In this document: positions 2,556-61,664 of the stretch, piece by piece
How the letters are laid out: every line of letters begins with the position of its first letter
Numbering within the stretch: position 1 is the first letter of the stretch
NCBI RefSeq assembly: GCF_013752535.1
Contig: NZ_CP058348.1
Span: 1,240,001-1,304,000 of the forward strand
Length of the DNA: 64,000 nucleotides
Direction: 5' to 3'
Source of the DNA: Bdellovibrio sp. KM01
GTDB taxonomy: Bacteria > Bdellovibrionota > Bdellovibrionia > Bdellovibrionales > Bdellovibrionaceae
Translations under genes and position numbers: made by a program
The notes under the pieces: model-generated
What the model saw: the letters and a program-made list of their open reading frames with translations, nothing else
What the model was told of the DNA's origin: nothing
The model's database searches: none

Positions 2556-3533
2556 TTAGTTCCCTTCAACTTGAATCAATTCAGAAGTTTCTAAATTCAT
2601 ATGACGAGGACCACCTTTGCCCGGTCCGCCGGGCCCGTTGCCAGGTTTGCCCGGCGCCGGTCTTCCAGGGCCGGGACCAGGTTTCGGCGCAGGCGGTTTA
2701 GGCGCTGGAGCTGGTGGCTTCGGAGCTGGAGCCGGTGGCTTTGGAGCCGGAGCTGGTGGCTTTGGAGCCGGAGCTGGTGGCTTTGGTGCCGGAGCCGGTG
2801 GCTTTGGTGCCGGAGCTGGTGGCTTTGGCGCTGGAGCTGGTGGCTTTGGCGCTGGAGCTGGTGGCTTTGGTGCCGGAGCTGGTGGCTTTGGAGCCGGAGC
2901 TGGTGGCTTTGGTGCCGGAGCCGGTGGCTTTGGTGCCGGAGCTGGTGGCTTTGGCGCTGGAGCTGGTGGCTTTGGCGCTGGAGCCGGTGGCTTTGGTGCC
3001 GGAGCTGGTGGCTTCGGAGCCGGAGCTGGTGGCTTAGGAGCCGGAGCTGGTGGCTTCGGAGCCGGAGCTGGTGGCTTAGGAGCCGGAGCCGGTGGCTTAG
3101 GAGCCGGAGCTGGTGGCTTTGGTGCTGGCGCAGGCGGTTTAGGTGCAGGCGCTGGTGGTTCTGGACGTTTTGGGCACCAACGAGATGAAACTTCTTCTGA
3201 TTCTGTTGTGCAGTTTACGACTGTGCAGTTTGCGAAATTGCGTTGGCAAAGATTCACCGCAACTTGTTCAGCATTCCAGCGATCTTCTCCAGAACCTTTT
3301 ACTGTGATTCGATTTCCAAGATAGTCTGTCCCAACGGCGTCACAAGTTGCATACTCAAGGTTGCAAGTTTCAACGCAGTCGCCATGTTTTGCTTGGCAAG
3401 AGCCGCAGCTATCGTGGCCACCCCAATGTTCTTCCCAACCTTTATCACGAGCACTGCATGTAACGCGTGACGCAAAGGCGGGGGCTGTTCCGAATGACAG
3501 CATAAAACTTAAAAACAGACTTAGTGGTTTCAT
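2556..3533 (-). CDS. exported Cys-rich protein with 22 PPAPAPK repeats
   Basis: Function not recognised. A clear signal peptide (MKPLSLFLSFMLSFGTAPAFA) is followed by about 105 residues with some 12 cysteines (for example CGSCQAKHGDCVETC), which suggests a disulfide-stabilised periplasmic or surface domain. Next come 22 exact PPAPAPK heptads, then a Gly/Pro-rich stretch and a short tail. Pro-Lys repeats of this kind form stiff polyproline-II rods that span the periplasm or peptidoglycan, as in TonB or proline-rich wall proteins. It is the first gene of a two-gene operon with the downstream coiled-coil protein. Reading frames on the other strand across the repeat are long only because the DNA is repetitive. 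Confidence 0.75.
   Translation of the reverse strand: MKPLSLFLSFMLSFGTAPAFASRVTCSARDKGWEEHWGGHDSCGSCQAKHGDCVETCNLEYATCDAVGTDYLGNRITVKGSGEDRWNAEQVAVNLCQRNFANCTVVNCTTESEEVSSRWCPKRPEPPAPAPKPPAPAPKPPAPAPKPPAPAPKPPAPAPKPPAPAPKPPAPAPKPPAPAPKPPAPAPKPPAPAPKPPAPAPKPPAPAPKPPAPAPKPPAPAPKPPAPAPKPPAPAPKPPAPAPKPPAPAPKPPAPAPKPPAPAPKPPAPAPKPPAPAPKPPAPKPGPGPGRPAPGKPGNGPGGPGKGGPRHMNLETSELIQVEGN
2698..3159. repeat. 21-bp tandem repeat array, 22 units
   Basis: Twenty-two back-to-back 21-bp units encode PPAPAPK on the minus strand. Units differ at synonymous third positions, which gives each a fingerprint. Units 4-9 (2761-2886) and 10-15 (2887-3012) match in order except for one base in unit 14, so the array carries a recent 126-bp duplication. 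Confidence 0.95.
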
Positions 3534-49365: not shown

Positions 49366-49803
49366 ATGACGATGAATACTCTGCCGCCAGTAGCGAAATC
49401 CTTTTTTGCATTCTGTAAAAAATGTGATGCTGATAGATACCATGTAGTCTTGGCGCATACGTCGGCAACTTCTGCAAAAATCAAATGTGAGATTTGCGGT
49501 TCTCAAAAAACATATTCTCTTCCTAAGGCTCAGACTAAAACTGGCAAACCTTTGACAGGTGCTGCCGCTAAAAAACGCGAACAAACTTTGAACTCGCGCA
49601 AATCTTCCCATAAAAACGAATACGAAATGTTGATGGCGAACGGTGGCTCCACTGCGACTTACAACATGAAGGGCAAATTCGAGAAAAACACGAAATTGCA
49701 ACATCCTAAATTCGGTTTGGGTTTCATCAAAGATGCAGCTTCGGATAAAATCGAAGTAGTATTCGAAGATGAAGTTAGAACTCTTATTCACAACCGCGTA
49801 TAG
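49366..49803 (+). CDS. zinc-ribbon protein with C-terminal PcrA-like Tudor domain
   Basis: 145 residues. The N-terminal part has a zinc ribbon (CKKCDADRYHVVLAH, then CEICGSQKTY), the middle is Lys/Thr/Arg-rich, and the last 40 residues (LQHPKFGLGFIKDAASDKIE, then VVFEDEVRTLIHNRV) resemble the Tudor-like domain that ends PcrA/UvrD and contacts RNA polymerase, and the related start of CarD. The Rep-type helicase encoded 239 bp downstream lacks such a tail. I infer a transcription-repair coupling role; only the domain likeness and neighbourhood support it. Confidence 0.75.
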   Translation: MTMNTLPPVAKSFFAFCKKCDADRYHVVLAHTSATSAKIKCEICGSQKTYSLPKAQTKTGKPLTGAAAKKREQTLNSRKSSHKNEYEMLMANGGSTATYNMKGKFEKNTKLQHPKFGLGFIKDAASDKIEVVFEDEVRTLIHNRV

Positions 49804-49846
49804 TCGTCGGCCGCGCGAAAAAGTCCATCCGACTGCGTTGTCGGCC

Positions 49847-49894
49847 CTGGTCCTCGCTCCGACGTGCCTGCAGCACGCCTGCGCTGCGGGCCAG
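49847..49894. repeat. GC-rich hairpin element, copy 1
   Basis: Outer stem CTGGTCC/GGGCCAG (49847-49853 with 49888-49894) and inner stem CGTGC/GCACG (49863-49867 with 49873-49877) share layout with the element at 60623. Flanks TGCGTTG and TGCGCTGCGGG are shared too. Lies between the zinc-ribbon and helicase genes. Confidence 0.7.
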
Positions 49895-49993
49895 AACCTC
49901 CGCGTGGGCCGTATCGGCCCCCTTCGGGTGACGGCTGAACCTTTTGGCGCAGCCTCATTGACAATCAGGGATCATTTTTTTATTTTTCTGATG

Positions 49994-60112: not shown

Positions 60113-60526
60113 ATGGCAAAAGCTACTAAAAAAGCTACTACTAAGAAAGCTGCTCCAAAAAAAGCTGCAGCTAAAAAAGCAACTACTAAAAAAGCTGCTC
60201 CAAAAGCAAAAGCTACTACTAAAAAAGCAGCTCCTAAAGCTAAAGCAGCAAAAGCTCCTAAAGCTAAATCTGCTCGCAAACCAAATGCAGCATTCATGAA
60301 AGCTTTGACTCCATCTGCAGCTTTGGCAGCAGTTGTTGGTGCTTCTCCACTTCCACGTACTGAAGTTGTTAAAAAACTTTGGGCTTACATCAAGAAGAAC
60401 AATCTTCAAGATTCTAAAAACAAACGTAACATCAATGCAGACGCAAAACTTAAAGAAGTTTTCGGTGGCAAAACTCAAGTTAGCATGTTCGACATGACTA
60501 AACTAGTTTCTAAGCATCTTAAATAG
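60113..60526 (+). CDS. SWIB/MDM2-domain protein with histone H1-like lysine tail
   Basis: 137 residues. Residues 2-57 are a Lys/Ala/Pro/Thr-rich tail with repeated KKAAPKA units like histone H1 and bacterial AlgP/Hc1 proteins; residues about 62-137 form a SWIB domain (LTPSAALAAVVGASPLPRTE, VVKKLWAYIKKNNLQD, then KLKEVFGGKTQVSMFDMTKL). Such SWIB proteins are known from Chlamydia and some other bacteria, where they are thought to bind DNA or compact chromatin. A strong CGGAGGA site and clear terminator show a single, probably well expressed gene. A nucleoid role, perhaps in attack-phase compaction, is inference. Confidence 0.88.
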   Translation: MAKATKKATTKKAAPKKAAAKKATTKKAAPKAKATTKKAAPKAKAAKAPKAKSARKPNAAFMKALTPSAALAAVVGASPLPRTEVVKKLWAYIKKNNLQDSKNKRNINADAKLKEVFGGKTQVSMFDMTKLVSKHLK

Positions 60527-60546
60527 ATCTTAGTTATCTAAGAGTG

Positions 60547-60579
60547 AAAAAAGCCTGGGGTGACCCAGGCTTTTTTTTT
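60547..60579 (+). terminator. terminator of the SWIB gene
   Basis: AAAAAAGCCTGGG and CCCAGGCTTTTTT form a 13-bp perfect stem with a GTGA loop, followed by more T. Confidence 0.92.
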
Positions 60580-60622
60580 GCCTTCGTGTCGGAATGGTTG
60601 AAAAGCGGCCATCTGCTGCGTT

Positions 60623-60684
60623 GGAGCGGGCCGTCCTCGCTCCAGCGTACATTGAGTACGCCTGCGCTGCGGGCGGCCCGCTCC
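60623..60684. repeat. GC-rich hairpin element, copy 2
   Basis: Outer stem of 14 bp (GGAGCGGGCCGTCC, 60623-60636, with GGGCGGCCCGCTCC, 60671-60684, one T-G pair) and inner stem CGTAC/GTACG (60646-60650 with 60656-60660, loop ATTGA). Related to copy 1 at 49847, with compensating changes in both stems. Confidence 0.8.
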
Positions 60685-60862
60685 GCCTTGCAGCTGACCA
60701 CTTTTGAACCATCCCTCGGGCCAGTGTTTTACGATCCCGGTGTTTTCTTGCTGGCTGGCCCTTTCGGGCGCCGCTGTTTTGGCTGGTCGTCGCCTTTGGC
60801 GACTTGGCGCCGCTGGTTTGGGGGCGGGCTCGGGTTTTGGTTTCGTTTGGGTAATCCTTGGC

Positions 60863-60891
60863 TTGGAAGTGGGAGGGGGGTGTGTTATACC
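60863..60891 (+). promoter_or_regulatory. promoter-like pair that would make a leaderless map mRNA
   Basis: TTGGAA (60863-60868) and TATACC (60886-60891) are 17 bp apart. A start site about 7 nt further would fall within 1-3 nt of the map ATG at 60900. No ribosome binding site lies at normal distance from that ATG. Confidence 0.4.
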
Positions 60892-60899
60892 TTTTTCCT

Positions 60900-61664
60900 A
60901 TGGGAATTAAGCCTCTTTCTCTTGAAGAGATCAAAAAAATGACTGTGGCCTGCAGGATTGCGGCCGATACTCTGACTTATCTTGAAAAGTATGTGAAAAT
61001 CGGGATCTCTACTCAGGAGATTGATGAGCTTGCTAATGATTTTATGCAAACTCGTGGGGCTAAGTCGGCGTGTTTGGGGTATCATGGGTATCCTAAGTAT
61101 ACTTGTACTTCTGTGAATGAAGTTGTTTGTCATGGTCTTCCAGATCCTGCGGTTGTTCTTAAGAATGGTGACATCATTAATGTGGATGTGACGGCTTGGA
61201 TTGATGGATTCTTTGGGGATACTTCACGTATGTACATGATTGGTGATGTTTCTGATGAAGCTCGCGATCTTGTGGAGACGGCGCAGTTGGCTCGTGACAA
61301 GGGGATTGAGGCGATCACTCCTCGTGGATATACAGGTGATATTGGATTTGAAACTTATAAGTATGTGACTCGCAAAGGCTACACGGTTGTTAAAGAGATC
61401 GGTGGTCATGGTGTCGGTCGTACTTTCCACGATGAACCTTTTGTTCCTGCGTTTGGAAAAAAGGGTAAGGGCGAGCGCCTGGTGCCTTTCCACTGTATCA
61501 CGGTGGAACCGATGGTGAATCAAGGTGTTGAGGATGTGGTGGAATTTGCTATTCCGGGCTCTTCTATCAAGTACTACAACACGGCGGATGGGAAATTGTC
61601 GGCTCAGTATGAGCATACAGTTTTGGTAACTGATACGGGTTACGAAATCCTGACTCTGCCATAA
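60900..61664 (+). CDS. map: type I methionine aminopeptidase
   Basis: 254 residues. All five metal ligands can be placed: Asp96 and Asp107 ([17 protein letters not shown]), His about 171 ([13 protein letters not shown]), Glu in TVEPM and Glu in [10 protein letters not shown]; His78 in VVCHGLP is the substrate His. It removes N-terminal Met from new proteins. The start fits the usual opening; a longer frame starts in GC-rich repeat DNA and is unlikely. There is no Shine-Dalgarno at normal distance and a promoter-like pair lies just upstream, so translation may be leaderless. Confidence 0.93.

Follow-up and report, generated by a model that had tools for sequence, protein, structure and literature searches.

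What kind of sequence keeps its stems paired while the bases within them change? At 60623-60684 of the window (the whole 64,000-nucleotide stretch of Bdellovibrio DNA analysed here, positions 1240001-1304000 of the single 3.96 Mb contig of its own genome, G000), a GC-rich hairpin had been described as one of two copies carrying compensating base changes, and selection on an RNA or cruciform structure was proposed. The preliminary description read the letters correctly: both copies are found where they were placed, intergenic and on the plus strand, their common 42-nt block is recovered by a repeat search as a two-copy repeat (83%), and GCACGCCTGCGCTGCGGG, when at most 3 mismatches are allowed, has two hits in the window where 0.00 would be expected. 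The inner stems (CGTGC/GCACG and CGTAC/GTACG) and the stems around them (CTGGTCC/GGGCCAG and GCCGTCC/GGGCGGC, each with one T-G pair) are as reported. The count of two, however, was too low, since BLAST and a covariance model find about 20 strong copies in the genome, and the hairpin, although real, is only the inner part of the larger hairpin at 60591-60714.

From 60623-60684 the pairing runs outward through CTGCGTTG/CCGCCTTGC and GAAAA/TTTTG to the arm pair GGAATGGTT/AACCATCC (Table 1). The RNA fold of 60588-60717 has an energy of -75.4 kcal/mol and a z of -7.8, and DNA folds of the 60591-60714 copy give z values of -6.7 and -7.0 for the two strands. This segment (60588-60717) was used as the BLAST query against the own genome; 17 of the copies were aligned (alignment A1), and the covariance model built from that alignment (CM R1) was then used for searches, matching the element itself with 130 bits at 1300587-1300717 of the genome (window 60587-60717). 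The T-GAAAA/TTTTG-A motif, including its G.G mismatch, does not vary among the 17 aligned copies. The outer arms are 7-16 nt long in nearly all of about 96 copies, and their sequence varies by copy with complementarity kept. The other copy in the window, placed at 49847, is also real and is part of a larger one at 49813-49950 that carries a mini-hairpin of about 28 nt in its 3' arm; this second copy folds no better than shuffled sequence (z -0.23). The junction of its insert, CCTCCGC|GTGGGC, recurs in two copies of G012, another genome of the genus (L258 and L260). Mini-hairpins with TTCG-like loops were seen within element arms at window 49904-49931, L109, L258 and L260, with one junction common to three of them.

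Table 1. Coordinates in the window of the two element copies, their parts and the adjoining coding features
Feature	Position	Strand	Basis or remark
Complete palindromic element, both outer arms included	60591..60714	+	CM R1 match and fold
Left outer arm GGAATGGTT, copy-specific	60591..60599	+	pairs with 60707-60714
GAAAA, invariant; its first G stands against TTTTG's G, a conserved G.G mismatch	60600..60604	+	A1 columns
Conserved box CTGCGTTG	60616..60623	+	alignment A1; also in Verrucomicrobiota copies
Variable stem, 5' side, GGAGCGGGCCGTCC; includes the stem of the preliminary description	60623..60636	+	pairs with 60671-60684
Apical hairpin CGTAC-loop-GTACG	60646..60660	+	98.8% pairing across the cells of helix 3
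Variable stem, 3' side, GGGCGGCCCGCTCC	60671..60684	+	pairs with 60623-60636
Conserved box CCGCCTTGC	60683..60691	+	alignment A1
TTTTG, invariant, then right outer arm AACCATCC	60702..60714	+	alignment A1, arm comparison
Upstream leading-strand gene, SWIB-domain protein	60113..60526	+	terminator ~60550-60579, element beyond terminator
Second copy, outer arms GCGC/GCGC, insert splits 3' arm	49813..49950	+	CM match at window 49799-49937, 74 bits
Mini-hairpin insert in second copy (GTGGGCCGTATCGGCCCCCTTCGGGTGA), ~28 nt	49904..49931	+	sequence
Stop codon TAG of upstream ORF 49366-49803	49801..49803	+	13 nt 5' of second copy's GAAAA

Around the element, the product of 60113-60526 is an Ala/Lys-rich repeat protein with a SWIB-like C-terminus that resembles the tail of topoisomerase-SWIB fusions. 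Past the element, 60723-60860 holds more small hairpins (GGCTGGCCCTTTCGGGCGCCGCTG, TCGTCGCCTTTGGCGACTTGGCGCCGC) resembling the sequence after other copies, and elsewhere in the window, at 2575-3248, there is a tandem repeat of 22 copies of a 21-nt unit.

The CM R1 search found the element in 21 of 24 Bdellovibrio genomes, the own genome included, with between 3 (G009) and 78 (G018) matches, and gave no matches in the other three (G003, G004 and G014). Across the phylum, 60 of 290 genomes and 30 of 162 genera carry it, and the element also occurs on plasmid pBdHAGR2, immediately at the end of a CDS. Metagenome-assembled genomes of Verrucomicrobiota (L130, L137 and L139) keep the whole plan of TGAAAA, CTGCGTTG, CCGCCTTGC, TTTTGA and complementary arms; L137 holds two inverted element copies. 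Pattern matches in Bacteroidales, Spirochaetaceae and Planctomycetes did not keep the plan and the arms and were read as chance, and the element was not found in the viral contigs and phages searched. No Rfam family matched it above the gathering score, and a search of the open-access literature returned no description of it in Bdellovibrio. Four loci of the own genome (L045, L046, L050 and L051, at 3639546, 34276, 2374171 and 891995) are fork-oriented relatives of about 110 nt with similar boxes, apparently a second sub-family, and G013 contains tandem pairs in the same orientation with few nucleotides between them (L151, L161, L167, L171 and L173).

Covariation counts as the standard proof that an RNA is functional. 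Gathering the copies, building a covariance model and measuring covariation, the check proposed together with the hairpin, bore out the pairing: in A1, 95.5% of stem cells are paired, both sides have changed in 24 of 37 pairs, double-changed cells number 121 (32.6 +/- 5.3 in shuffles, and 15-23 when the partner is slid), and the covariation score is 0.530 compared with 0.169 in shuffles. Tallied over 96 copies, the cells at variable, well-paired positions are Watson-Crick in 1797 cases, G-T in 25 and A-C in 66. Two semi-conserved C.A mismatch positions account for 37 of the 66, leaving 29 A-C against 19 G-T without them. An RNA made from the written strand would be expected to prefer G-U over A-C, which is not seen, and hence an RNA reading is not favoured; pairing that is almost purely Watson-Crick points instead to a hairpin at the DNA level.

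The copies also come and go. Around most of the copies that G000 and G012 have in common, the two genomes show 92-95% identity. The G000 orthologue also has the element at 13 of 27 G012 loci (at least 13 shared), while at least nine sites are filled in G012 only and six in G000 only; the finding of the same sites filled or empty in species this close indicates that the element is mobile. Empty orthologues have the same stop codon and no element (L202/L274, L247/L293, L027/L267, L028/L292, L179/L268 and L251/L265). At L032 the filled site reads GGGGCC, then the insert CGCAGGCTGTT...AACAGCCTGC, then TAATAGG, whereas in two genomes (L263/L264) the empty site reads GGGGCC-TCATTAGG, and the outer arms are thus part of the insert. 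Insertion into pre-existing palindromes was rejected on this comparison, the empty sites being non-palindromic, and copying of the arms from the target was rejected because the arm sequence occurs in no empty site examined. Decay is seen at L250/L296, which is truncated, and at L031/L295, which retains the arm hairpin alone; this small hairpin with similar arms is read as a deletion remnant. In the SWIB-map gap the element occupies one place in ten genomes, and the other members of the genus lack it there. Most copies have no clear target duplication.

Orthologous copies differ in how far they have diverged, L030/L198 being little changed and L026/L186 and L022/L244 differing en bloc in arms and inner stems. 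Arms track core similarity only loosely, and unrelated arms may flank cores with an identity of about 91% (L179/L190, L027/L052). Both patterns could have arisen if cores were passed from copy to copy by conversion, or if a site received insertions more than once. Given mobility and arms carried by the insert, the covariation partly records the past of a mobile palindrome and not that of one conserved RNA site. The paired base changes therefore resemble the trace left by a jumping DNA hairpin and not that of a conserved RNA. The selection on pairing proposed in the preliminary description is still reasonable in view of the covariation, but its RNA half is not favoured, given the lack of a preference for G-T, the mobility and a position set by the direction of replication.

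Two regularities mark the copies, and the first is their position. With genes taken as simple ORF calls and not as curated annotation, 85 of 96 copies have an upstream gene that shares their orientation; for 60 of the 85 the outer stem starts no more than 7 nt after the stop codon or overlaps it (about 10 expected in the same gaps). Between convergent genes, 27 of 39 copies lie at the co-oriented stop, and 3 of 39 come within 7 nt of the stop of the opposing gene. All four copies examined in G032, a genome from another family, likewise lie at stop codons, within 11 nt. The type of stop codon is not enriched at insertion sites (TAR in 52/60, compared with 151/174), and a YTAR target word was rejected as the cause of this location, being not enriched either (32/60, compared with 83/174), so that no simple target word accounts for the address behind stop codons.

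The second regularity is orientation with the direction of replication. The dnaA gene was located in eleven genomes, and element orientation was compared with that of the fork in seven closed ones: 229 of 239 copies (96%) are fork-oriented, a count made with genome lengths rounded except for G000 and after opposite-strand echoes of the palindrome and some of the weakest hits had been removed by hand. The individual genomes give 26/26 (G000), 41/41 (G013), 25/25 (G006), 68/74 (G018), 17/18 (G022), 28/30 (G002) and 24/25 (G012). In the own genome the last plus-strand copy lies at 1.46 Mb and the first minus-strand copy at 2.11 Mb, and between them, where element orientation flips, GC skew changes sign at 1.96-2.00 Mb. 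The written strand serves as lagging-strand template in the replichore that runs rightward. Gene-orientation bias was rejected as the cause, since leading-strand ORFs (at least 200 aa) make up merely 174 of 290 (60%), which cannot explain 229 of 239 (p ~3e-38), and 53 of 98 downstream neighbours share the element's orientation. In G000 the orientation holds against neighbouring genes too (including L024, L032 and L038), and lagging-strand genes, 40% of the total, almost never have the element.

Taken as a whole, the element is probably a non-autonomous, non-coding mobile DNA element, similar to a MITE or REP, that acts as a DNA hairpin. Counting against this reading, the search found no cognate transposase, the 1.6 Mb sampled from G013 and G000 contained no autonomous version, no simple target word explains the position behind stop codons, and most copies have no clear target duplication. 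An enzyme supplied in trans would recognise T-GAAAA/TTTTG-A with its G.G mismatch, CTGCGTTG and CCGCCTTGC in folded or paired DNA, and would insert the element one way round while the DNA is being replicated, the written strand serving as template for the lagging strand. At their 3' ends, genes of the leading strand would leave this strand accessible, and an insertion there would do no harm; copies could then change by correction from arm to arm, conversion between copies, deletion or insertion of mini-hairpins. A more specific proposal, about which we are rather doubtful, is that insertion needs two coincident signals, namely the lagging-strand template and the boundary between translated and untranslated DNA behind a stop codon (for example, single-stranded coding-strand DNA past the last ribosome). 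The arms would be kept complementary by templated correction, and Watson-Crick covariation would thus come from DNA processing in a distinct class of mobile hairpin.

Two narrower forms of the mobile-element reading name the enzyme. In the first, the element would be a MITE derived by deletion from an IS5/IS1182-like DDE element and moved by that transposase, with its orientation coming from contact of the transposase with the clamp at the fork. Distant homologues (G050 and G085) have nearly constant ends, CTAG-CAGGCTGTTGAAAAAGG...CCTTTTTGAACAGCCTG-CTAG, and the same 24-25 nt end starts IS5-family elements on rhizobial plasmids of Ensifer, Rhizobium and Mesorhizobium, with a close variant in Methylomonas; the Ensifer and Methylomonas elements are flanked by CTAG on either side, and NCBIfam labels their transposases IS5_4. 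The arms of L032 in the own genome, CAGGCTGTT/AACAGCCTG, match such ends. An IS5-type DDE ancestry is suggested by these end sequences. However, the arms in Bdellovibrio do not form a constant terminal repeat (96 copies show 53 different 7-mers), and the right end is TTTTGAAC and not TTTTCAAC. CTAG lies on both sides of L321, and YTAR on both sides of L079, L155 and L062; overall, YTAR is not enriched. Neither an IS5-type transposase gene nor a long autonomous version was found in the sequence sampled, 1.2 Mb from G013 and 0.4 Mb from G000. Movement by such a transposase is accordingly a serious possibility, but one we lean against.

In the second form, which we regard as unlikely, the element would be of REP type and moved on the lagging-strand template by an HUH/Y1 (RAYT) transposase. 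Fork polarity is a hallmark of IS200/IS605 elements, whose insertion is oriented by replication (PMC6006769, PMC5371812), and REPs lie downstream of genes, often supplying a TAG stop (PMC3733652). Y1 genes (PF01797) are common in Bdellovibrio, and in G000, G012 and G022 six of them have an element no more than about 400 bp away, the arrangement being fixed; only 6 of 40 Y1 loci hold a strong copy, always on the 3' side. The Y1 genes examined nevertheless have their own, different flanking repeats (GGGTATCGGTCA, AAGGTGCCTG), and the search found no Y1 hit in G013 (with 41 copies), G017 or G008, all of which carry the element. There is also no GTAG/CGTC tag, and the length is about 125 nt and not 20-40. 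The own genome has twelve Y1 genes of at least two classes, with inverted repeats GGGTATCGGTCA..TGACCGATACCC and AAGGTGCCTG..CAGGCACCTT (L204-L243 being Y1 loci), and across ten closed genomes most Y1 genes are apparently on the lagging strand.

A structured RNA or 3'-UTR element selected downstream of genes, either an mRNA stabiliser or a bidirectional terminator (A-tract, GC stem, T-tract), seems still less probable. It would fit the position at co-oriented stop codons, the strong covariation and the GC stem flanked by GAAAA...TTTTG. Against this, the fork sets orientation even where neighbouring genes oppose it, the genes of the lagging strand are almost devoid of copies, G-U pairs are not favoured on the written strand, no Rfam family applies, and at the SWIB locus the element is placed beyond a pre-existing terminator. 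AAAAGCGG...CCACTTTTG brackets the GC stem, yet a terminator scan of 60400-60900 gave no terminator-like hit. An oriented chromosome signal (a KOPS/FtsK-like or fork-related site) whose orientation is kept by selection would account for the 96% polarity, but is highly improbable given a range of 0 to 78 copies within the genus, absence from three congeners, fast gain and loss, and a plasmid copy.

Strong and strictly Watson-Crick covariation in a family of mobile DNA hairpins should put RNA discovery pipelines on their guard. Near-absolute polarity with respect to the fork, together with precise insertion behind stop codons, offers a natural record, one that can be counted, of transposition coupled to replication in a predatory bacterium, and renders testable the question of which mark of a leading-strand gene's 3' end draws the inserting element.

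Several known systems share parts of this behaviour. Integron attC sites likewise combine conserved structure with variable stem sequence and conserved mismatches, but the element lacks the GTTRRRY/RYYYAAC core ends, having variable arms in their place, and occurs as single scattered copies and not in a cassette array. IS5/IS1182-like elements and their MITEs share the CTAG-CAGGCTGTTGAAAAAGG ends of the distant homologues and of one own-genome copy, but differ from it in its conserved, covarying internal hairpin, its right end TTTTGAAC, its variable arms and its lack of target-word enrichment. Members of IS200/IS605 (IS608, ISDra2) share hairpin ends and an orientation that follows replication (229/239 for the element), whereas the element has no tnpA or tnpB inside, is a symmetrical palindrome and targets gene 3' ends, not a tetra- or pentanucleotide. 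The REP/REPIN-RAYT system (PMC2817692, PMC3116915, PMC3733652) is palindromic, multicopy, extragenic, downstream of genes, stop-adjacent and non-autonomous, as is the element. REPs are palindromes of 20-40 bp, however, whereas the element is a single hairpin of about 125 nt with copy-specific arms, has no GTAG/CGTC tag (its flank is whatever stop codon is present, with TAR and YTAR at baseline), has no cognate RAYT flanked by the same repeat, and shows the near-absolute fork polarity measured here. Thus, while it fails the definition of a REP in tag, RAYT and size, the element works like a REP/MITE or an IS200/IS605-type element.
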